Below are positions 8,578-40,473 of a DNA stretch of 46,742 nucleotides, one piece after another (position 1 is the stretch's first letter; each line of letters opens with the position of its first letter). Position numbers and translations under genes: made by a program. This DNA is from a virus: IMG/VR virus record IMGVR_UViG_3300017963_000368, positions 1-46,742 of that record; one strand, 5' to 3'. The notes under the pieces are model-generated. The model was not told the origin of the DNA. It saw only the letters and a list, made by a program, of their open reading frames with translations, and did not search any database.

Positions 8578-9771
8578 ATGGCTTTAACAGCACCAAGCAT
8601 TTACACAAGATCCATGGCCCCCGTTTATGACGAGCACAGTCAGATAATGAACGGGAATATGTTTCAGGCTCTTTTCAACGGGCCAAATTCATATACGCTT
8701 TTTTCTCCTGACAAGAATACTGTCGATGTCGATATTATCAGGGGTGACAAAGACATTGCGAAGTTCAAGATCCGGGGCACCAATGCTGGAGCCAAAGGAC
8801 AAAATGAGGCAGCCGGACAGGTTCACAAGTATACTTCTCAAGCAATGGCGTACCCGCTTATTGAAGAGTATGGCTTTGTAAGAGCCAGCCAGTTTATAGA
8901 ACGATTGGCAGGAGAAAATCCATATTCGTCATTGACAAAACAGCAAAGAGCCAGAGTTCTTGCCTCGAGGGAGCATGCCGGTCACATCGGAAGGATCCTT
9001 CGAAAGCAGGAAACAATGGCGGCTGAGTCCTTCAGAACCGGCACGCTGACAGTGAACACCAAAGGCGATACGTTGGATTTTGGAAGGGCGGCGTCATTGA
9101 CAGCGGCGGCGACAGGCGTTTGGACAGGCGCGGCTTATGACATCATCGGAAATGACGTCATCCCTGCAATGCAGGCGCTGAGAGACAAACATGTTTACGG
9201 TCACCTTGGAATTTTCGGTGAAGACGCTTTCAATGCTTTCATCAACAACTCGACCATTCAGACCTTAGCTGACAATCGAAGACTCGCTTTCCATTCCATG
9301 GGTGAAGCATCCATGATCGGGCCGGCTCCTTCATGGCTTCAGCCTCTTCTTGCCGCTGGCGCTCAGTACCATGGCTGGGTCAAGGCTGGAACAGACACGA
9401 TATACATCGTCACCTACACAGACTTTTACATCAACTCTTCTGGAACAGCCGTTCCGTACATGCCTGTAAGCGAAGTTCTATTTACAAACATCAACGTTCG
9501 GCAAGACCGTTATTTCGGTCCAGGCGAGATGACAGATGACGCAATGGACGCCATGGTTTATAGAGAAGTTTTGGGCATTTCTAACCAAAACATAAACACC
9601 GCGAATCTTTTTGGCAGATTCAGCAATGTTGGCCTTGTTGATTCAAGGATGTTTTCTCTTGGCGCAGAAAAAGATGGCACGAGCGGATACAAGATCTTGT
9701 CGCAAACAGCTCCCATTTACGCACCGACTCAGGTTGACGGCGTGTTCAGACTGACAGGAGCGACTGCGTAA
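8578..9771 (+). CDS. Major capsid protein, lambda gpE family
   Basis: 397 aa. HK97-fold shell protein of the lambda E type. Characteristic parts are the N-terminal Tyr/Asp-rich arm, the segment VDVDIIRGDKDIAKFKIRGT, the helix-containing ERLAGENPYSSLTKQQRARVLASRE, and the C-terminal region with LFTNINVRQDRYFGPGEMTDDA. Slightly longer than lambda E (341 aa). Preceded by a strong ribosome binding site (AAAAGGAGTCTCCC before ATG). Its stop overlaps the start of the next gene (TAATG). Confidence 0.9.
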   Translation: MALTAPSIYTRSMAPVYDEHSQIMNGNMFQALFNGPNSYTLFSPDKNTVDVDIIRGDKDIAKFKIRGTNAGAKGQNEAAGQVHKYTSQAMAYPLIEEYGFVRASQFIERLAGENPYSSLTKQQRARVLASREHAGHIGRILRKQETMAAESFRTGTLTVNTKGDTLDFGRAASLTAAATGVWTGAAYDIIGNDVIPAMQALRDKHVYGHLGIFGEDAFNAFINNSTIQTLADNRRLAFHSMGEASMIGPAPSWLQPLLAAGAQYHGWVKAGTDTIYIVTYTDFYINSSGTAVPYMPVSEVLFTNINVRQDRYFGPGEMTDDAMDAMVYREVLGISNQNINTANLFGRFSNVGLVDSRMFSLGAEKDGTSGYKILSQTAPIYAPTQVDGVFRLTGATA

Positions 9772-10130
9772 TGGCAAAATACATAGTGAACAAATGCGTT
9801 TTTCGCGGAAAGAAGTTTCACACGAAGGGCAACCTTAAGGGTCGGCGGGAACTCATAGGGCATGGCCAGGAACTCAAAGGCGATGATCTTTCCATGTATC
9901 TTGGCCGTGTTGAGTATTTTGTCGATTCTGGATTGCTGGTAAGAGTTGAGTCATCCGAAGAGGTTGAGTCATCCGAAGAGGTTGAGTCATCCGAAGAGGT
10001 TGAGTCATCCGAAGAGGTTGAAAAGCCAAAGAAGAATAAGAAGTCCAAGAAAGGGAAGTCTAAAAAAGGCGATTCGGAAAAGAACGCCAAATTAGATGAA
10101 GTTCTGGAAGTTGATTTAGATGACATTTAG
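9771..10130 (+). CDS. Repeat-containing acidic/basic protein in the gpFI position
   Basis: 119 aa. Start overlaps the capsid stop. The first 60 residues are a compact domain rich in Lys, Gly and Tyr. They are followed by four perfect VESSEE repeats (DNA repeat at 9945-10016), then a strongly basic run (KPKKNKKSKKGKSKKG), and then an acidic tail. The bipolar, low-complexity C-terminal half is probably disordered. Position after the capsid gene is that of lambda FI, which helps terminase-prohead contact, but I see no sequence proof. A head-completion or packaging accessory role is a guess from location. Confidence 0.55.
   Translation: MAKYIVNKCVFRGKKFHTKGNLKGRRELIGHGQELKGDDLSMYLGRVEYFVDSGLLVRVESSEEVESSEEVESSEEVESSEEVEKPKKNKKSKKGKSKKGDSEKNAKLDEVLEVDLDDI
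9945..10016 (+). repeat. Four perfect 18-bp tandem repeats inside a CDS
   Basis: The unit GTTGAGTCATCCGAAGAG is present four times without any mismatch at 9945, 9963, 9981 and 9999. It encodes VESSEE in frame. The identity at the DNA level, including third codon positions, implies recent slippage or duplication, so the copy number probably differs between related phages. Confidence 0.97.
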
Positions 10131-24634: not shown

Positions 24635-25231
24635 CTAGAAAGGAAGGTCGTCCATGCCAATCTCGGATCCTGCAGCCGCATCCTCGTATTTGTCGTAATC
24701 GTCTTGGTAGTCGGTCATGGCGTCTCCGCCGTCAAGCCTTTCGCCTTCGTTGACTTTTCCAATCGATTGTATGGTGCATCCTATTCCTGGCTTTTTTCCG
24801 CCGTAGTTGTACCCAAATAGCGAAACGACAGCCTTTACCTGACAGCCTGCATAAAGCTTTGATGCCTCATCCGGAATGCTCGTATCGATCCCCGTCCTTG
24901 TTCGAATATCAACGCATGGAATTCGCTTTTTGCTTTTTCCTTTCAGAAAAAACCTTCCAGCGAAGCCGTCATAGTCTTTATCGTCGCCGTCACCGAAACA
25001 CTTGTAGTCTTCTCGAATGTCTTTTGCATAGCTTTTTCCGCTATGGTAGGTGGCCATTATCTTTTTTATGGCATTTCTGATTTCAGAGACGTCTTCGTTC
25101 TTCTCTATCAGAAAGGTAGCGCTGAACTTTTCTTCGCCTGATCCTTCAAAAGCTTCCGGCTTGGCGAGCCTTGGGAATGAAAGCGTGCACACCGGAAGCT
25201 TCACTTTGATGAATTCTATTTTGTCGGGCAT
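24635..25231 (-). CDS. Single-stranded DNA-binding protein, DUF2815 (gp2.5-like)
   Basis: 198 aa from the ATG at 25231, preceded by AAAGGA. The upstream in-frame ATG at 25246 lies inside the ribosome binding region and is less likely. The sequence (IEFIKVKLPVCTLSFPRLAKPEAFEGSGEEKFSATFLIEK; GYNYGGKKPGIGCTIQSIGKVNEGERLDGG) is typical of DUF2815, predicted OB-fold ssDNA binders related to T7 gp2.5. The C-terminus ends in an acidic tail with terminal aromatic residue (IGMDDLPF), as in SSBs that recruit polymerase and helicase through this tail. Next to the polymerase, as expected. Confidence 0.88.
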   Translation of the reverse strand: MPDKIEFIKVKLPVCTLSFPRLAKPEAFEGSGEEKFSATFLIEKNEDVSEIRNAIKKIMATYHSGKSYAKDIREDYKCFGDGDDKDYDGFAGRFFLKGKSKKRIPCVDIRTRTGIDTSIPDEASKLYAGCQVKAVVSLFGYNYGGKKPGIGCTIQSIGKVNEGERLDGGDAMTDYQDDYDKYEDAAAGSEIGMDDLPF

Positions 25232-25343
25232 ATTGTTTCCTTTCATATGTAGTCTCTTAAAATGTCTTCGTCCGAAAATACTACGGGCATGTTGTTTCCT
25301 TTCATATGTAGTCTCTTAAAATGTCCTCATCAGAAAAAACAAC
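25226..25343. repeat. 59-bp tandem duplication at a gene junction
   Basis: Units start at 25226 and 25285 with period 59. A 34-base core (from TTGTTTCC through AAAATGTC) is identical and the outer part is diverged. On the - strand the unit carries the last 13 codons and stop of the DUF2800 gene, the AAAGGA ribosome binding site and the first two codons (ATG CCC) of the SSB gene. It adds a second copy of the end of the upstream gene between the two genes. Confidence 0.95.
25243..25305 (-). CDS. 20-codon mini-ORF created by the duplication
   Basis: Reads MKGNNMPVVFSDEDILRDYI and stop. It starts in the ATATGA overlap of the DUF2800 stop and ends overlapping the in-frame ATG 25246 of the SSB gene. 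It fuses the SSB start (after an AAAGGA) to the DUF2800 tail, so it is a by-product of the tandem duplication. Whether it is translated is unknown. It may act as a coupling leader between the two genes. Confidence 0.35.
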   Translation of the reverse strand: MKGNNMPVVFSDEDILRDYI

Positions 25344-29006: not shown

Positions 29007-29305
29007 CTCAGCCCCCAATGCCCGGATTCCTTCAGCAATTCGACAATCCGCTTGTTGCTCGGACACCGGCTCATATACGCTTTCCGCATTTCAAAAAAAG
29101 CCCTTCGGGTCGCTTGATCCGCGTCAAACAGCTCTTCATACCCCCAAAGGTCTTCTCTAAGGTGAAGAGGCGGGTGTATTGTCTGACTCATCCGGCACTT
29201 CAGGTTCCCAATGAGAAATGCGACAAAAAGATCGGTATACCGACCAACTTCTGTCATGTCCAAAACGCCCCATTCAGCTACAAGATCAGTTCCTTCGACA
29301 TACAT
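29003..29305 (-). CDS. Small protein, paralogue B (unknown family)
   Basis: 100 aa from the ATG at 29305. Longer in-frame starts up to 29479 would run through the HAD-like gene and are not credible. Shares the E-G-x-x-L-x-A-x-W-G motif and the C-terminal KESGHWGLR with its neighbour, so the two genes arose by duplication. Start-stop overlap between them suggests translational coupling and possibly a heterodimer. Position upstream of SNF2 suggests a role in replication, but no function is recognised. Confidence 0.7.
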   Translation of the reverse strand: MYVEGTDLVAEWGVLDMTEVGRYTDLFVAFLIGNLKCRMSQTIHPPLHLREDLWGYEELFDADQATRRAFFEMRKAYMSRCPSNKRIVELLKESGHWGLR

Positions 29306-29327
29306 GTTAGAAACCCCCGATAATATA

Positions 29328-29855
29328 TTACCAAGTAGGCACGTACTTCTTTCCCTTCTTGAAAAGAAGCGTATCCGCGCCAAACGCCCTGCACGCCCTG
29401 AGCACTCTCGCTTCAGCCGACACAACGAAATCAACTTTTTGACCTCTGTATGCCCGTTTTTTAACCTGTTCAGCCACAAAAGCTATGAAGTCAGCCATGA
29501 GCATGACCGGACACCCTCCGAACGGTTTTGGCATCAGGACCTCGACCTTGTCCAGAACACCTGCGAGCTCATTTTCCAAAGCCCTCGAGATCTTGGCTTT
29601 CCTTTTGCTTTCGCCGTACCTTGTGACGAGCACGAGTTCGTAATGCTCCCCGTCCCGGCCTGCCAAAGCCATCGCAAGATCGATGACGGTTTGGTTTCCA
29701 AGCATGGTCGTTTTGTCATGCAGAGCGGTGTCAATGTCCACTATTACAGCACTTTTACCCAATTGTTTCCGCTCCTTTGGTCTTTGTTTTCTAGTTTGCG
29801 GAGACCCGTACTCGCGAACCCCTATGCGTTCAAGACTTGCAGTCTTGCATGCCAA
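29328..29855 (-). CDS. Degenerate HAD/PNKP-like protein
   Basis: 175 aa. The core reads like the polynucleotide kinase-phosphatase C-terminal HAD domain: AVIVDIDTALHD (D-x-D motif I near 38-43), then YELVLVTRYGESKRKAKISRALE (motif II-like), then DKVEVLMPKPFGG, and last VDFVVSAEARVLRACRAFGADTLLF. The usual D-D acidic pair of motif IV is replaced by Ser-Ala (VVSAEARV), so the phosphatase may be inactive or altered. Otherwise DxD is retained. No N-terminal kinase domain. First gene of the - operon, divergent from the prim-pol gene. Start codon has no clear ribosome binding site. Confidence 0.55.
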   Translation of the reverse strand: MACKTASLERIGVREYGSPQTRKQRPKERKQLGKSAVIVDIDTALHDKTTMLGNQTVIDLAMALAGRDGEHYELVLVTRYGESKRKAKISRALENELAGVLDKVEVLMPKPFGGCPVMLMADFIAFVAEQVKKRAYRGQKVDFVVSAEARVLRACRAFGADTLLFKKGKKYVPTW

Positions 29856-29997
29856 AATGCAGTTGTCGAATTTCCGCTGTTTGGGTTTTACTATTTTTAT
29901 GCTGTTTGGTCAATGTTTAAAAAAAAGCTTGCAAAACAGCTGGTAGTGCATTACTTTTTCGCACACAGCTTTCTCTTTACATAAGAAAGGGGCGTGG
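29856..29997. promoter_or_regulatory. Divergent promoter region between HAD-like and prim-pol genes
   Basis: 142-bp gap between a - and a + gene, so it must carry promoters in both directions or an operator. On + a weak sigma70 candidate is TTGCAA (29929-29934), 17-base spacer, TACTTT (29952-29957), with AAGGGG before the prim-pol ATG. I found no better match on -. The assignment is tentative. Confidence 0.3.
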
Positions 29998-31956
29998 ATG
30001 ACAGCTTCGCTCAAAGGTGCCCTGCACCTTGTAGAAAACTTTGGACTTCATGTTTTTCCACTTTCGAAAAACTCGAAAATACCAATCCGGAACCTTAAAT
30101 GGAGGGAAGTTTCTACCAACGACCATGCGCAGGTAAGAGCCTGGGCTTTGGCGCATCCCGGCTGCAATTTCGCAGTCGATTGCGAAAAGTCTGGGATAAC
30201 CGTCATCGACATCGACCGAAAAAAAGACAGCAACGGATTCGATTCCATCAGAAAACTGATTGAAGAGCATGGAAGTCTTCCGCCGACACTGTCTGTAGAC
30301 ACACCCTCCAATGGCAGGCACGTCTTTTACAAGGGGCTTACCAAAACAAGTCAGTCCTTAATGGGAAAAGGGATCGATACGAGGTCGAAAGGCGGATACG
30401 TTGTTGCTCCGGGATCGAGGATCGGCGAGAAGTCGTACAGGATCCTGAAAAGCCATTTGGAAATCGCCAAAGCCCCAAAGTGGATCGGAAGTCTGCTTCA
30501 GGCTGAGAAACGAGAGAAGAATCCTGTTGGGGAAGGCGAAATTGTCGAAGGCGAGCGAAACGGAAGGCTCACCTCGCTTGCGGGATCAGCACGAAGCCAA
30601 GGCTGCGGCGATCAAGAGATACTGGCACTTCTTTTGACCGCCAACGAAGAAAGGGTGAGGCCCCCCTTACCCCGCCATGAAATAGAAACCATAGTCAAGT
30701 CAGTTCTCCGCTATCCGGTCGAACACGCCAAAACCCTTTCAGATCTTGAAGCCGAAGTCATGGAAAAAGACATTCCGTTCCTGTTTTCAGGGGCGGATGT
30801 CACCCCTTCCAGCCGTCTTCGCATTCCGTGGGTGGCTGAAGGAAGGTATGCGAAAGGCTATCTGACGGTCTGTGTCGCAAAAGGCGGAGTCGGCAAAACG
30901 CTTTTCATGTTTTCAGATCTTCTTGGCATTTCCGCTGGCAGGGACCTTCTGGGGTATGGCGCAAAAATAGAAAAAACCAATACATGGCTTCATTCAACCG
31001 AAGACAGCCGAATGGATCTTGAAAGACGGCTTCTCGCGGCAAGGCAGGCCCACGGCATCAGCGCTGAAGACGCATCGGGCTTTTACCTTTCAAGCGGAAG
31101 GGACATGGGATTCAACCTCGCCTTCATGGAAAAGGGAAAGGTCGTCAAGAATCTAGTGGATATCGAAGTGATCAAGAAGACCATAAGACGTAATTCCATA
31201 GGGCTTTTTGCAATCGATCCATTTTCAGGGGCCCATGGACTTGACGAAAACTCGAACGCCCACATGGTATTTGTAAAAAACATATTGAACGAGATAGCCG
31301 AAGAAACAGGATGCGCAGTCATTGCGGTGCATCATGCGAGAAAAAGTTCATCAGATGGGGTAGAGGCTTCAAGAGGCGCAAGCGCGCTAACGGACGGGGC
31401 AAGAACCGTGCTGATGTTTTCCGAATTCACGAAAGAAGACGGCGAACGGTTCGGGGTCGATCACCCGGAAAAGTATACCCGCGTCAGCTTTGTGAAAAGC
31501 AACAACGCTTCGATGGAAAAATGCAAAACCATTTTCTTCGAAAAAAAAAGTCTGGAAATTCCGGAAATCGGCGAGACTGCCGCGGCGGTCCCGTTTGTGC
31601 CTGAAACGCACTCGCTGGTTGCAGGTGAAAAGGAAAAAAGCGAAGATGCCGCCAAAGTCATCGGCCTGAGAAACGATCTCACTATCGATGATCTTAAAGG
31701 CGCAATCGATGATTCGCTTTCAGGGGTCAAGGAGACGATGGCATGGAACCAAGCTGTGAAGCTCATCAGGGATGCAACAGGATTTGACCAGGAGGGCATC
31801 AGTCTAAAGGCAATCGAACTGCGCATAAGGCGGATGATCGACAAAGGCGGAGGAGTTTTGGACACCGGACATGTATGCCTCAAGCAGAGTCGTGAGAGAA
31901 ACAAATCGCTTGTCATTTTTCCTTCAAAAGGCGTTGAGCCTTTGTGGGACGGATAG
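29998..31956 (+). CDS. Primase-polymerase with RepA-like helicase domain
   Basis: 652 aa. Residues 1-150 are an archaeo-eukaryotic primase-like prim-pol domain: catalytic DxD at 71-73 (VIDIDRK), GRHVFY (106-111), GIDTRSKGGYVVAPGS (125-140). Residues about 180-250 fit the PriCT linker. Then an AAA/RecA-type helicase: Walker A AKGGVGKT (294-301) and Walker B LFAIDPFSG near 404-412, followed by HHARKSSSDG. The C-terminus is helical and may be a winged-helix DNA-binding part. It primes and unwinds DNA for PolA. Good ribosome binding site AAGGGG. It is transcribed opposite to the PolA operon. Confidence 0.9.
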   Translation: MTASLKGALHLVENFGLHVFPLSKNSKIPIRNLKWREVSTNDHAQVRAWALAHPGCNFAVDCEKSGITVIDIDRKKDSNGFDSIRKLIEEHGSLPPTLSVDTPSNGRHVFYKGLTKTSQSLMGKGIDTRSKGGYVVAPGSRIGEKSYRILKSHLEIAKAPKWIGSLLQAEKREKNPVGEGEIVEGERNGRLTSLAGSARSQGCGDQEILALLLTANEERVRPPLPRHEIETIVKSVLRYPVEHAKTLSDLEAEVMEKDIPFLFSGADVTPSSRLRIPWVAEGRYAKGYLTVCVAKGGVGKTLFMFSDLLGISAGRDLLGYGAKIEKTNTWLHSTEDSRMDLERRLLAARQAHGISAEDASGFYLSSGRDMGFNLAFMEKGKVVKNLVDIEVIKKTIRRNSIGLFAIDPFSGAHGLDENSNAHMVFVKNILNEIAEETGCAVIAVHHARKSSSDGVEASRGASALTDGARTVLMFSEFTKEDGERFGVDHPEKYTRVSFVKSNNASMEKCKTIFFEKKSLEIPEIGETAAAVPFVPETHSLVAGEKEKSEDAAKVIGLRNDLTIDDLKGAIDDSLSGVKETMAWNQAVKLIRDATGFDQEGISLKAIELRIRRMIDKGGGVLDTGHVCLKQSRERNKSLVIFPSKGVEPLWDG

Positions 31957-36469: not shown

Positions 36470-36928
36470 TTATTGTTCCAGACCGATATAATCAGCGACT
36501 ATCTCGTAAGCATCGTTTTCAGCATGAAAGCCATCGATCAGCTGGCAAGCCTGTTCAGCAAAAGACTTCCAAGCATCTGTCCGCTTGATATAGTAACTTC
36601 CCCCTCCCCCGTACATGTTAAGCCCTTCGTACATTTTCTCGAGCATCGAAGCCGCAGCATACAATAATGTCATGCCTTTTTCCCGATCACCGTTGGTGTA
36701 TCTTCGCGCAATGTGATTCTTATAGTACTCAGGAAAAATCTCGCCGGTCGTCTCGACCGATGTCTCACCTTCAGGAAGGTGGGCGGGGCTTCCAAGCTCA
36801 GCGTAAAGCTGGTTGATTTTTTCCATGACTGGCTTGTACGCGCTTTCGGCCATTTGTTGTTCGTTGTAGATCATTTTCAGCTCCTTGAAATCGACCACAT
36901 GGTCTATGTAGATTTGGTTGAATTCCAT
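36470..36928 (-). CDS. Hypothetical protein, first gene of the accessory - operon
   Basis: 152 aa from the ATG at 36928 with GGGGGGACGG upstream. An extended start at 37021 has no ribosome binding site and a poor sequence. Mostly helical (FKELKMIYNEQQMAESAYKPVMEKINQLYAELG; MTLLYAAASMLEKMYEGLNMYGGGGSYYIKR). No signal, membrane segment or known domain. It lies 45 bases downstream of a promoter-like element and next to the iteron region, so it may be an early gene controlled from there. Confidence 0.6.
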   Translation of the reverse strand: MEFNQIYIDHVVDFKELKMIYNEQQMAESAYKPVMEKINQLYAELGSPAHLPEGETSVETTGEIFPEYYKNHIARRYTNGDREKGMTLLYAAASMLEKMYEGLNMYGGGGSYYIKRTDAWKSFAEQACQLIDGFHAENDAYEIVADYIGLEQ

Positions 36929-36980
36929 GGCCGTCCCCCCATTTCGTCCGTTTTGGCGTTCGGGCCTTCCCTCCGCCAAA

Positions 36981-37008
36981 CTTATATTAAAGATCGGAGA
37001 AATTGCAA
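36981..37008 (-). promoter_or_regulatory. Promoter candidate for the 36928 gene
   Basis: Reading the - strand: TTGCAA (37008-37003), 16-base spacer, TATAAG (36986-36981). The -10 box is 5 of 6 and the -35 is 4 of 6. Expected start near 36974, about 46 bases before the ATG. Confidence 0.45.
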
Positions 37009-37260
37009 AAAACTTTAGCACAAATTTGCAACTATGTTAAATAACAGAGAAAAAGTTTGCGTACCATGAGCGTACTATGTGCGTACCATGGTTTTTTCAG
37101 TTTTTTCAGTTTTCAGCCAAGTTGGCGCACATCTTGTTTCTCCGAATATCCCAGCGATTTCATCTGCTTAGGCGCTTGTACAGGATTAAGCGCATCAAGC
37201 GATCATAACTATATTATATGAGCTTTTCGTCAAAAATAAATTAATGCAGTGATTTCAAGC

Positions 37261-37337
37261 AGGGTACGCGAAAGGTACGATCAGGGTACGATCAGGGTAC
37301 GATCAGGGTACGATCAGGGTGCGTGAAAAGTACTTCA
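37261..37337 (+). repeat. Seven 11-bp iterons
   Basis: Consecutive 11-bp units starting at 37261, 37272, 37283, 37294, 37305, 37316 and 37327. The consensus AGGGTACGATC is perfect in units 3-5. Units 1 and 2 differ at the edges, unit 6 has GTGC for GTAC, and unit 7 is diverged. GTAC therefore falls every 11 bp, close to one helical turn, so a bound protein would meet one face of the DNA. A further GTAC pair 11 bp apart is at 37352 and 37363. Confidence 0.95.
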
Positions 37338-37424
37338 ATGATATCAACGGAGTACGCGAAAGGTACGCGTACGTGCTCAGCTGGAGAAAAAACGGTCTGA
37401 GACCACGCCAAGTACGCATGCTTC

Positions 37425-37483
37425 GGTACGAATCGCATAAACCTTTATTTTCAAACACGTACGATAAAGTACGAATCGCATAA
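37425..37483 (+). repeat. Direct repeat GTACGAATCGCATAA
   Basis: GTACGAATCGCATAA occurs at 37426-37440 and again at 37469-37483, 43 bases apart. The AATCGCATAA half is repeated once more near 37739, just right of the large inverted repeat. The spacing is about four helical turns. Likely second class of binding site in the control region. Confidence 0.85.
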
Positions 37484-37610
37484 TCCTTTAATAACGCATA
37501 GTTGCATTTAAAGCCATTTTGGCATGAAAACCCCCCTTCAGGCGATACCGCAAAAAGCGGAGCGTACCATGGATTTGTCTATAACCAATTGATATTATTA
37601 GTCTTATTAG

Positions 37611-37731
37611 GGGTTGACTTCCCTTTTCCCTTAGTGTATTTTTTACGGGTGCTTTCGCACGCCCCACCCGTCGGTGGGCCGGGAGGGGGCACGTAAGCGT
37701 AAAAAACTAAGGGGAAAAAAGGGAACCTCCT
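37611..37731. repeat. Large inverted repeat with two internal hairpins
   Basis: Left arm 37611-37647 and right arm 37698-37731 pair over about 27 positions: GGTT/AACC, CCC/GGG, TTTT/AAAA, CCCTTAG/CTAAGGG and TTTTTTACG/CGTAAAAAA, with small bulges. Between them lie two perfect hairpins: GTGC-TTTC-GCAC (37649-37660) and CCCACC-CGTC-GGTGGG (37663-37678), and the G-rich tail to 37689. No T-run, so it is not an intrinsic terminator. It could be a cruciform, a nick site or a structured RNA. Confidence 0.85.
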
Positions 37732-37842
37732 AGCCTCAAATCGCATAAATAAAAAGAAACAAGTAAAAAAGCATAGTTAGCTTTCAAAGCAGGAAAAAGC
37801 TTGACTCAAGCAGGGTCTGAAATCGTTTTTTTTTAAAGCTCG

Positions 37843-37851
37843 TGCTATATT
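37843..37851 (+). promoter_or_regulatory. Extended -10 promoter for the RuvC-like gene
   Basis: TGCTATATT fits the extended -10 motif (TGnTATAAT) 36 bases before the ATG at 37887. No good -35 at the usual spacing, which extended -10 promoters tolerate. Expected start about 37858. Confidence 0.4.
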
Positions 37852-37886
37852 GCCCAAAATGTCCTTTTAACAGAACGGAGAAGAGC

Positions 37887-38435
37887 ATGATCATCATGGG
37901 GATTGATCCGGGTCCGGAAGTGAGCCATTACGCAATATGCGAAAAAAAAGAGAGGAAACCGTCTTTTTTAAAAGGTGGCCATTTTATGAACAACAGCCCG
38001 AGCAAGAACAAGAACTTCATCCGGGACGAAAAAGTTGATCTTCTTGTTATAGAAATGGTAAAGAATTACGGAATGCCAATGAGCGATCATGTCTTGGCCA
38101 CCTGCGCGGCATCTGGCGCATATGCGGCACTCGGCAACATGCTCGGAATCTGCGTAAGGCTCGTGCCGAGAAAAACCATTGTGACAGCCCTTTGCGGAAG
38201 CGCAAGAGCCAATGACGCCAATGTCAGGTCTTTCCTTACGGACTATTGGCTTTCACTGTTTGACCTTGACGGTCTTGGCGGTGGCCAGAACAGGCTCGTG
38301 GGCACCTCGAAAGATCCGGGTCCGTTTTCAGGATTTAGAGGTAAGGCCAACAGCGACAAATGGGCCGCACTTGCGTGTGCGACATACGAGCTTTTGGGAT
38401 CTGAAAAAGTTCGAGATGCTGATGAATGGCTTTAA
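37887..38435 (+). CDS. RuvC-like Holliday junction resolvase
   Basis: 182 aa from 37887 (GGAG seven bases upstream); an upstream in-frame ATG at 37842 overlaps the promoter. RNase H-fold nuclease. D7 in MGIDPGPEVSHYAI, a Glu near 56 in LLVIEMVKNYGM, then LVPRKTIVTALCGSARANDANVRSFL and a C-terminal NSDKWAAL with the last acidic residue. This is the phage RuvC-type pattern seen in many PolA/SNF2 phages. It resolves branched DNA before packaging. First gene of the rightward run next to the origin candidate. Confidence 0.88.
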   Translation: MIIMGIDPGPEVSHYAICEKKERKPSFLKGGHFMNNSPSKNKNFIRDEKVDLLVIEMVKNYGMPMSDHVLATCAASGAYAALGNMLGICVRLVPRKTIVTALCGSARANDANVRSFLTDYWLSLFDLDGLGGGQNRLVGTSKDPGPFSGFRGKANSDKWAALACATYELLGSEKVRDADEWL

Positions 38436-38446
38436 AGGAGTTTGAA

Positions 38447-38659
38447 TTGGAGAAAAAAACAAAGAGAGGTGATCGGCTTGTGGAGGTGTGCGCGGAGTGC
38501 TTGACGGCTTCATGCTGGCATGGAGAGTTCATGTGCTGGGGTTCAAGGCATGCGGACGTTGTTGAGAAGACTGTGTCCGAGCTTCGTCGCCTAAGGCGCG
38601 AACACCCTTCCAACTATAGTTTGGCAAAGATCAGAAGAGTTTTTGGAGGGCCGTCATGA
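38447..38659 (+). CDS. Small Cys-rich protein (TTG start)
   Basis: 70 aa. Start chosen at TTG 38447, six bases after AAAGGAG (38434-38440); an ATG at 38426 lies inside the previous gene and lacks a ribosome binding site. Contains CAECLTASCWHGEFMCWG, a Cys-His cluster that may bind zinc, then a charged helix (VEKTVSELRRLRREHP). No known family. Overlaps the PHP gene start by four bases. Confidence 0.65.
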   Translation: MEKKTKRGDRLVEVCAECLTASCWHGEFMCWGSRHADVVEKTVSELRRLRREHPSNYSLAKIRRVFGGPS

Positions 38660-39324
38660 ATTTGATTGATTTTCACGTTCACAGCGATTCAAGCGATGGC
38701 CTCCTATCGATGAGGGATCTTGCGAAAAAGGCCGAAGACGTTGGTCTTGATGCTTTGGTTTTAACCGATCACGACTACTGGAGTGGGTCATTTGATAGGA
38801 ACTTGACGCTGATGGACTGTTTTTCAAAAGAAATAGGCATCCCCGTCATAGTCGGCTGCGAGATCAACACGCCTTCCGGCGAGTTTCTTCTTTTCGGGAA
38901 AGAGGCGATCGACCGCTGGCTTTCCTTTCGGGATCAGCTTTCGAAGATTTTCACAGTTGCAGGGTGTTCAAATTTTTGGAACGCTTTCAGATTCGACGTG
39001 CTGGGGTCTTTTTTGAAAGACGGGATTGAGAAAATGGGGACCCCCTATGCGATGATCATGTGTCATCCGGCGAGTGCTGATTTCTATTCAAAACAGCCTC
39101 GGTCGATGTTTGAGCTGATTCATGGCTTTGAGATTGTTAATCGTGGGATCCGTTCGAATCCCGATACTGTCCGTGTTCTTAGGAAGCTCATGCCGTGGGC
39201 CAGAAAGCTTTCCAATTCTGATGCCCACGACGATGAGATAGGATTGTCGCGAAACGAAGTCGACATCGAGGGTCCCGTGACAGAAGAGTCGTTGATTGAG
39301 TGGTTGAGGCGTGGAAAAAGCTGA
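38656..39324 (+). CDS. PHP-domain protein
   Basis: 222 aa. Metal-dependent phosphoesterase of the PHP family. HxH at 7-9 (FHVHSDSSDG), then LTDHDYW (D38, H39), VGCEIN (E69), MCHPASA near 136, and NSDAHDDEIG near 190. The full metal-ligand series is present, so it is probably active. Related domains are found in DNA polymerase III alpha and in histidinol phosphatase. In a phage it might cleave nucleotides or nucleic acid ends. The companion polymerase is PolA, which has its own exonuclease, so the role is not obvious. It overlaps the previous gene (ATGA). Confidence 0.82.
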   Translation: MNLIDFHVHSDSSDGLLSMRDLAKKAEDVGLDALVLTDHDYWSGSFDRNLTLMDCFSKEIGIPVIVGCEINTPSGEFLLFGKEAIDRWLSFRDQLSKIFTVAGCSNFWNAFRFDVLGSFLKDGIEKMGTPYAMIMCHPASADFYSKQPRSMFELIHGFEIVNRGIRSNPDTVRVLRKLMPWARKLSNSDAHDDEIGLSRNEVDIEGPVTEESLIEWLRRGKS

Positions 39325-39355
39325 AGACTGGTTGTAGAAATTTGTCCAATGAATT

Positions 39356-39700
39356 ATGGTTGGCCAGAGGGTCGTTGTCGGATCTGCCAATCCGATGACT
39401 AGCAGGGGCTTTTTCTGGCAGGAAGGGTTCTTGCGAGCTGCCGCGATGACATCAAATCCAGCGCCCTCGCAGTTGAGAACTAAGGGTGTTTTTGTGGTTC
39501 AGAAAAAAACAAAGCTTGAAAAAGGGGACAGGGTCCCTTTGGTGTATTCCAGGCATCATGTCATAGTCGAAATTGTCGGTGAAAGCGAAACGCTCTACAG
39601 ACTGAAAATAGTCGAAGCTCCTTCTCGCAGATTTATTGGCCTTCTGCTGGCCCGAAACAAGACCGATTTCCAGCCTGTAAAGACGCTTGAGTGGTTCTAG
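39356..39700 (+). CDS. Hypothetical small beta-barrel protein
   Basis: 114 aa from 39356; the ribosome binding site is not clear and later starts (39395, 39446) are possible, the last giving 84 aa. The conserved-looking part is KKTKLEKGDRVPLVYSRHHVIVEIVGESETLYRLKIVEAPSRRFIG, similar to a small KOW/SH3-like barrel. Terminates four bases into the next, oppositely oriented gene. Low confidence in the start. Confidence 0.4.
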   Translation: MVGQRVVVGSANPMTSRGFFWQEGFLRAAAMTSNPAPSQLRTKGVFVVQKKTKLEKGDRVPLVYSRHHVIVEIVGESETLYRLKIVEAPSRRFIGLLLARNKTDFQPVKTLEWF

Positions 39701-39894
39701 TCCAGCCATAGTTTTGCAAAATCCTTGATTTCTTTTTCGCTGAAAAATTCAAAATTACCGGCGCAAGAGACGTCATCCCCAATTTGAAAGACCGCTTCGT
39801 ATTTGTGGCCGTAAATTGTTTTTTCTGTTTGACTTAAAAAAAGTATTTTAGACTCCGGATTTTTTTCACTTTTGAAAGTGTAATTTTCCAACAT
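39697..39894 (-). CDS. Small protein divergent from the XRE regulator
   Basis: 65 aa from the ATG at 39894, with AAAAGGGG eight bases upstream; an earlier start (39957) would read through the regulatory gap. Sequence ENYTFKSEKNPESKILFLSQTEKTIYGHKYEAVFQIGDDVSCAG is soluble and beta-rich, ending NFEFFSEKEIKDFAKLWLD. Opposite to the neighbouring + genes and divergent from the HTH gene, the geometry of a repressor/Cro-type switch, though this one has no visible DNA-binding motif. Confidence 0.5.
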   Translation of the reverse strand: MLENYTFKSEKNPESKILFLSQTEKTIYGHKYEAVFQIGDDVSCAGNFEFFSEKEIKDFAKLWLD

Positions 39895-39997
39895 GCTTTT
39901 TTCCCCTTTTTTTTCTCCTTTTCGCATATTCCTATTGCTTTTCTTCTCGGCATGCAATAGAAAAACTTTAGAAAATAGATGTTTTCAGGGGGAGTTC
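39895..39997. promoter_or_regulatory. Divergent control region with inverted repeat
   Basis: CTATTGC (39932-39938) and GCAATAG (39954-39960) are perfect 7-base arms with a 15-base spacer. On + they overlap a possible promoter TTGCTT-17-TAGAAA (39935-39963) and on - a symmetrical one (TTGCAT-17-TAGGAA). An operator bound by the XRE protein is a natural guess. Confidence 0.45.
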
Positions 39998-40216
39998 ATG
40001 GACATTCGTGCAAAATTACGCAAGTTTAGAAGCGATCGGCAAGTGACTCAAGAAAAAATGGCGACAATTCTTGGCGTGAAGCAAAGTGCAGTTTCTCGAA
40101 TTGAATCGGGGGTTCAGAGGCTGAACCTCAGCCATCTTGAAAAACTGTGCAATTACTACGAGGTGTCCATCGACTTTTTTCTGGAAAAGAAGCGCTGCGG
40201 CCGAAGGAGGAGTTGA
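39998..40216 (+). CDS. XRE-family HTH transcriptional regulator
   Basis: 72 aa from the ATG at 39998 (GGGGGAG four bases upstream); the longer ORF start at 39893 crosses the regulatory region. The whole protein is an HTH_3 domain: IRAKLRKFRSDRQVTQEKMATILGVKQSAVSRIESGVQRLNLSHLEKLCNYYEVSIDFFLE. No C-terminal dimerisation or protease domain, so it is a Cro-like or small repressor. Probably regulates its divergent neighbour and the downstream genes. Confidence 0.9.
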   Translation: MDIRAKLRKFRSDRQVTQEKMATILGVKQSAVSRIESGVQRLNLSHLEKLCNYYEVSIDFFLEKKRCGRRRS

Positions 40217-40218
40217 GG

Positions 40219-40473
40219 ATGGAGAAAATGGACGGAATAACGGCGGAAGGTGTTGAGCGAGTCATGCTTTCAAGCCTCAATTTGTACATTGGCGGAAGGT
40301 TTATCGGCGAGCGGGAAAGCCTTGAGATTGCGAAGGGCTTTTCGAGGCTCATGAAAAGGGTTTTGGGGCCCTCTTTTGGGGAGGAGCATATCATGATGCA
40401 GCTAAAGCTTGGCTTTTTTAAAGAGCAGCTGGAAAAGGTTTTTGACGATGAATGCGAACGAGATCACAGCTGA
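40219..40473 (+). CDS. Repeat-family protein, single copy
   Basis: 84 aa from the ATG at 40219 with AGGAGG eight bases upstream. Residues about 6-70 contain a module (GITAEGVERVMLSSLNLYIGG...ESLEIAKGFSRLMKRVLGPSFGEE) that occurs twice more in the next gene. Helical, soluble, with the recurring V-x-x-V-L-G-P-S-F motif. No known domain. Starts two bases after the XRE gene stop, so it is in one operon with it. Confidence 0.7.
   Translation: MEKMDGITAEGVERVMLSSLNLYIGGRFIGERESLEIAKGFSRLMKRVLGPSFGEEHIMMQLKLGFFKEQLEKVFDDECERDHS

Follow-up and report, generated by a model that had tools for sequence, protein, structure and literature searches.

In SaPI and SCCmec elements, the gene for an initiator helicase is followed immediately downstream by short iterons, and SaPI Rep helicases recognise such iterons directly downstream of their own gene (PMC7581432). 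The oriV of plasmid RSF1010 combines iterons for RepC, the helicase RepA and the primase RepB′, which acts at ssi hairpins, and the Prim-Pol origin of pRN1 contains a stem-loop element of ~100 nt (PMC4234260).

We compared these systems with a non-coding locus in an IMG/VR virus record of 46,742 bp, the whole of which was analysed and is termed the window below. Based on its terminase, portal and baseplate genes, the window is assigned to a myophage, whose lineage is uncultivated and known from sequence data alone. The locus is an intergenic region of 958 bp (36929–37886) between a minus-strand gene without known family and a plus-strand operon headed by a RuvC-like gene, in line with the ~960-bp non-coding region between divergent operons described in an earlier sequence-only reading. 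We propose, with a probability of about 0.62, that this region is the replication origin of the phage and that an array of GTAC-centred repeats within it represents the iterons.

Gene content of the window and comparison with known origins

The replication genes of the window encode PolA, SSB, an exonuclease, a DNA helicase and a Prim-Pol/AAA_25 protein; the PolA, Prim-Pol and RuvC genes named in the sequence-only reading were thus recovered, the last as RuvC-like. Four genes are relevant to the locus:

29998–31956, + strand: fusion of Prim-Pol, PriCT_1 and AAA_25 (RepA-like helicase), candidate primase-helicase acting at the array
36470–36928, − strand: flanking gene, 152 aa, no family found
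37887–38435, + strand: flanking gene, RuvC-like Holliday-junction resolvase (phrog_1770, E 1.9e-8; PF02075 sub-threshold)
39893–40216, + strand: XRE/HTH_3 protein, rival candidate as array-binding protein

As in SaPI and SCCmec elements (Rep, Cch2), multiple short non-coding iterons are found in a replicon with a phage- or island-encoded primase-helicase (PMC7581432). In the SaPI/SCC systems, a helicase of the D5/SF3/AAA+ type is encoded directly upstream of the origin, whereas the helicase domain in the window is a RecA-like AAA_25 domain encoded 5.3 kb from the array. The SaPI/P4-type arrangement is therefore not present: the Prim-Pol gene ends at 31956 and the array starts at 37264.

With the oriV of RSF1010 the window shares a RepA-like helicase (1g8y) and iterons, near which AT-rich DNA and a strong hairpin are located (PMC4234260). 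The helicase is of the hexameric, RSF1010 RepA-like type: the AAA_25 match in the Prim-Pol protein has an E value of 3e-27, and the helicase half of this protein resembles RSF1010 RepA, PDB 1g8y (E 4.2e-10). As a possible counterpart of the ssi hairpins, one large hairpin is located near the iterons (z −5.4 as DNA). The iteron unit of RSF1010 measures ~20 bp, whereas that of the window measures 11 bp; the window primase, a Prim-Pol, forms one protein with the helicase. No homologue of the iteron-binding protein RepC was found among the window genes scanned. The window resembles pRN1 in having a Prim-Pol replication protein and a stem-loop (PMC4234260), but the pRN1 origin lacks iterons and is located just 3′ of the replication gene, and its helicase is of the SF3 type.

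Two leads towards an initiator domain or protein were followed. Residues 535–652 of the Prim-Pol protein, in which a winged-helix domain was sought, have the predicted order H-H-H-E-E-E in a low-confidence model (pLDDT 50), and we dropped this model of the C-terminus as evidence because it is too weak. The ORF at 29211–29984 (+) beside the Prim-Pol gene was judged spurious, being antisense to 29328–29855 (−).

Some further features of the window were observed. Overlapping palindromic arms surround TCGGTATACCGA at 29215–29260, upstream of the Prim-Pol gene and within minus-strand genes. A 59-bp unit is duplicated in tandem (copies 92% identical) at the junction of the SSB and exonuclease genes (25225–25337), and an 18-bp unit occurs in 4.6 copies with 98% match (9941–10021) inside a small plus-strand ORF (9771–10130) directly after the major head protein gene. 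The operon headed by the RuvC-like gene also encodes a PHP-domain protein (PF02811, 38656–39324).

GTAC sites form a phased array of ten registers

The sequence-only reading had described seven 11-bp units at 37261–37337, six with GTAC and one with GTGC. We found these in exact register between 37264 and 37330 (GTAC at 37264, 37275, 37286, 37297, 37308 and 37330; GTGC at 37319), with the GTGC unit being the sixth in order rather than the last. The seven-unit array is real, but its extent was understated: the register continues past 37337 with GTAC at 37352 and 37363, so that 9 of 10 slots up to 37366 are filled, and a second array and outlying sites accompany it:

37058–37090, − strand: second array, made up of three 11-bp units (CATGGTACGCA) that run opposite to the main array
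37264–37366, + strand: main iteron array; of its ten consecutive 11-bp registers, eight hold GTAC, one holds GTGC and one is lost (~37341)
37363–37374, strand not assigned: overlapping GTAC sites (GTACGCGTACGT) at the end of the main array
37409–37490, + strand: two imperfect 39-bp direct repeats with two GTAC sites each, the second followed by GAATCGCATAA
37561–37571, − strand: lone outlying site (AGCGTACCATG), in the form found in the second array

The unit of the main array is RGTACGMNNNN, and four units, (A)GGGTACGATC(AG), are almost identical; accordingly, TRF reports a period of 11 with 100% match over 37274–37320. Beyond the main array, GTAC is found at 37369, 37412, 37426, 37459, 37469 and 37564. 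Over the whole 46.7-kb record the tetramer is depleted (87 copies compared with ~182 expected from base composition), and yet 18 copies fall within 507 bp of this one intergenic region (Poisson P ~5e-19). Similarly, GTACGNNNNNNGTACG (≤1 mismatch) has eight matches, all in the intergenic region, compared with an average of 0.55 in shuffled sequences. A scan of the whole window for 4-mers filling at least five slots at periods of 10–13 returned nothing besides parts of the GTAC array, and at period 9 just three 5-slot cases appeared. GTAC is retained in units whose spacers have diverged (37264, 37330, 37352 and 37363), in separate blocks and on both strands. Retention of the tetramer where the spacers differ speaks against mere slippage.

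Genome-wide, GTAC occurs at about half the predicted frequency, perhaps because host restriction or a binding site is avoided.

AT-rich segments and a stable stem-loop accompany the array

The locus has the makings of an iteron origin in that tandem short repeats occur beyond chance in non-coding DNA and AT-rich DNA lies beside them. The remaining elements of the intergenic region are:

37091–37113, + strand: T-rich 9-bp direct repeats GTTTTTTCA (2.6 copies) adjoining the second array, candidate unwinding segment
37205–37249: AT-rich segment between the arrays, candidate DNA unwinding element (78% AT over 37210–37249)
37570–37609: AT-rich segment between the GTAC sites and the stem-loop (78% AT)
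37611–37731: large imperfect stem-loop (z −3.4 as RNA; z −5.4 as DNA, − strand)

After GC correction, the stem-loop is the most stable fold of the genome (rank 1 of 1332 windows). It is possibly an ssi or priming hairpin, or else a transcript leader or terminator; promoter-like hexamers are located at 37614–37642 and 37867. A search of the array and stem-loop region for tRNAs and Rfam families found none. DnaA boxes (TTATNCACA) do not cluster at the array, and their total in the window is not above that of shuffled sequences.

Strand composition was assessed by the G/C and T/A skews at third codon positions with gene direction held constant. Both skews favour an origin at ~35–37.5 kb in the canonical direction, with more G and T on the leading strand. 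The best-fit origin lies 1.5–2 kb from the array, and for the pooled G+T skew a better fit than that of the array was obtained at only 4% of positions. When applied to four named phages with repeats near primase or RepA genes, the same test agreed clearly in one, and for G/C only. Because of this outcome we count the skew as weak support, and we rejected it as unreliable for use as a general origin test in phages with primase-adjacent repeats.

Some phased arrays in other phages adjoin replication genes

We scanned IMG/VR for three 11-bp-phased GTACG units, a pattern of our own choosing, and obtained 94 loci. These include clear arrays in non-coding DNA adjoining replication genes:

L015/L030/L066/L068 and L053: array adjoins Prim-Pol with DUF5906 helicase region
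L002 and relatives: array adjoins Prim-Pol
L078/L064: array adjoins Toprim_3 + AAA_25
L020: array adjoins PriCT_1 + VapE
L061: array adjoins BT4734-like primase

Two other cores used as controls, TGCA and GTCA, matched no less often than GTAC. The GTAC core is therefore not special in number, and the idea that it is uniquely favoured found no support. As an internal control for the distance between array and gene, weak isolated matches were compared with strong clustered arrays, counted by clade. With the palindromic cores GTAC/TGCA in unrelated phages, 14 of the 65 clades with clustered arrays had a primase or helicase gene no more than 1 kb away, compared with 1 of 52 with isolated matches (Fisher p 0.001), and for GTAC alone the figures were 6/25 and 0/27 (p 0.009). 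With a non-palindromic core, the respective counts were 3/38 and 1/43. This enrichment is probably overestimated, since genes observed close to arrays served as seeds for the replication-family models. Integrase and terminase genes showed no excess near clustered arrays over isolated matches. Clustered arrays of other phages often lie 20–280 bp 3′ of the primase gene. Counted over whole records, Prim-Pol did not differ significantly between GTAC arrays (4/50) and the control pattern (2/50).

Three observations on other loci are recorded here. In L068, a small stand-alone protein with a DnaA C-terminal DNA-binding domain (PF08299; 5550–5936) is encoded ~300 bp after the GTACGCGATT array and the Prim-Pol gene and is a possible array-binding protein. 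In L213, L230, L234, L238, L240, L255, L277 and L297, 11-bp arrays of the TGCAC(CACAAC) type precede an integrase-family gene by 0.5–0.8 kb (for L234, PF00589 was confirmed), which may represent a different use of phased arrays. The GTAC arrays L009:1043–1182 and L032:13092–13185 each immediately precede a Gp88-like gene; PF17338 was confirmed for L009, and for L032 the assignment is suggested by sequence and by clustering with L047 and L231.

Named phages were found by primase homology, independent of the array pattern, and in three of them the primase-helicase is ~50% identical to that of L078. In the region directly 3′ of the primase gene, Idiomarinaceae phage 1N2-2 carries GGTACA 11 times in 266 bp, Alteromonas phage XX1924 GGTTCA 12 times in 328 bp and Salicola phage CGphi29 GGGACA six times in 243 bp. 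In Rhodoferax P26218, RepA is followed by a TGTAGC-like repeat. In three more distant phages, no such repeat was found after the primase/RepA gene. The comparison of these sequences suggests that the repeat motif diverges together with the primase, as expected of a recognition site. 1N2-2, XX1924 and CGphi29 resemble the window in their dense short repeats, which occupy the gap after the AAA_25 primase-helicase gene. They differ from it in that the candidate repeats are not strictly 11-bp phased and adjoin the gene, and the primase is of the Toprim type.

The sequence-only reading knew of no described phage with this iteron. In agreement with this, DNA similarity searches with the region found no match in phage and plasmid collections, and the exact 20-mer of the array is absent from genome_contigs, where the terminase alignment also gave no match. 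The reading had further suggested that such arrays be sought in relatives. Using terminase and Prim-Pol as baits, we obtained one close relative only (L096/G001, 38 kb; terminase 65% and Prim-Pol ~50% identical), and this record, which looks truncated, lacks a GTAC cluster as well as any match to the RuvC-like protein. The helicase as bait retrieved distant relatives only, at most 42% identical, and the RuvC-like protein retrieved none.

Alternative explanations for the array

The main rival to an origin is an operator array. Here a regulator such as the XRE protein (39893–40216) would bind phased GTAC half-sites cooperatively and control both divergent operons. The array lies between these operons, and the HTH_3 gene is located ~2.5 kb downstream in the plus-strand operon; for these reasons the regulatory role included in the sequence-only reading retains some probability. 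The promoter-like hexamers mentioned above are compatible with it, as is the symmetry of GTAC-N7-GTAC, which a dimeric HTH protein could use on adjacent turns. Moreover, the phages 1N2-2, XX1924 and CGphi29, in which similar repeats occur, have Cro/HTH-type genes ahead of the primase. However, operators of the Cro/CI type usually have far fewer than 18 sites, and here 18 are spread over 507 bp. GTAC is also absent from 37568 to 40283, a span that includes the local upstream region of the XRE gene, and the arrays of other phages lie 3′ of primase genes and not at the promoter of an HTH gene. We therefore regard an operator array as rather unlikely; an XRE operator could possibly be located at the operon promoter near 37.6–37.9 kb.

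A site for recombination (attP, integrase arm-type or excisionase sites) or for packaging (cos/pac) is brought to mind by the TGCA 11-bp arrays that in some other phages lie 0.5–0.8 kb from tyrosine integrases. Among the window genes scanned, none was recognised as an integrase, the terminase genes are far from the array at the start of the record, and GTAC arrays show no excess of either gene nearby, which makes this explanation very improbable.

The parC site of plasmid R1 consists of 11-bp iterons in two array blocks bound by ParR, and the period and the two blocks of our locus resemble it. A centromere-like partition site of a plasmid-type prophage would fit partition, the other role offered by the sequence-only reading. 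Neither Pfam nor PHROGs revealed ParA, ParB, ParM, ParR or TubZR among the non-structural genes scanned, the genes flanking the iterons gave no match to the actin-like ParM or the ParR of a type II (ParMRC) site, and there is no sign of a plasmid lifestyle. We consider a partition site highly improbable.

Neutral tandem duplication without function, as the near identity of the four core units after recent slippage might suggest, is hardly credible for a tetramer conserved amid diverging spacers in separate blocks on both strands and depleted elsewhere.

A proposed model for replication initiation at the array

A replication origin, also foreseen in the sequence-only reading, is favoured indirectly by the association of such arrays with replication genes in other phages, by the anatomy of iterons, AT-rich DNA and stem-loop and, weakly, by the nearby switch in strand composition. 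Against it stand the distance of 5.3 kb to the Prim-Pol gene, with the array not being located 3′ of that gene, and the relatives: none with the array was found, and the only close one, an apparently truncated record, has no GTAC cluster.

The arrays, AT-rich segments, hairpin and replication genes are present in the window, and from them we infer each binding, unwinding and priming step and the identity of the initiator. An initiator would bind the GTAC-centred sites, which recur once per turn along a single face of the helix and are grouped into two arrays of opposite orientation. Its binding would distort and open AT-rich DNA between or beside the arrays, and the Prim-Pol/RepA-like helicase (29998–31956) would then load and prime, perhaps at the stem-loop (37611–37731). 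Priming by the RSF1010 primase at its ssi hairpins offers a parallel for this step (PMC4234260). The PolA-type polymerase of the phage would finally extend in both directions. The initiator may be an unrecognised small protein, or the Prim-Pol protein may take this part through its C-terminal domain.

The element probably belongs to an ordinary kind, the iteron origins of phages, and its motif is new. More tentatively, phased arrays with a phage-specific 4-bp palindromic core (GTAC or TGCA) every 11 bp might be a widespread and largely undescribed origin format of primase-helicase phages, in which the core diverges with the primase; the window would then be a case in which origin and primase gene have become separated. 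We see this generalisation as a possibility on the doubtful side.

If the proposed origin is correct, it would provide a concrete replication start site for an uncultivated myophage lineage with Prim-Pol/RepA replication and a test system for start-site choice by a fused Prim-Pol helicase. It would also give a simple rule for locating origins in many unannotated phages, namely phased palindromic-core repeats near a primase gene.
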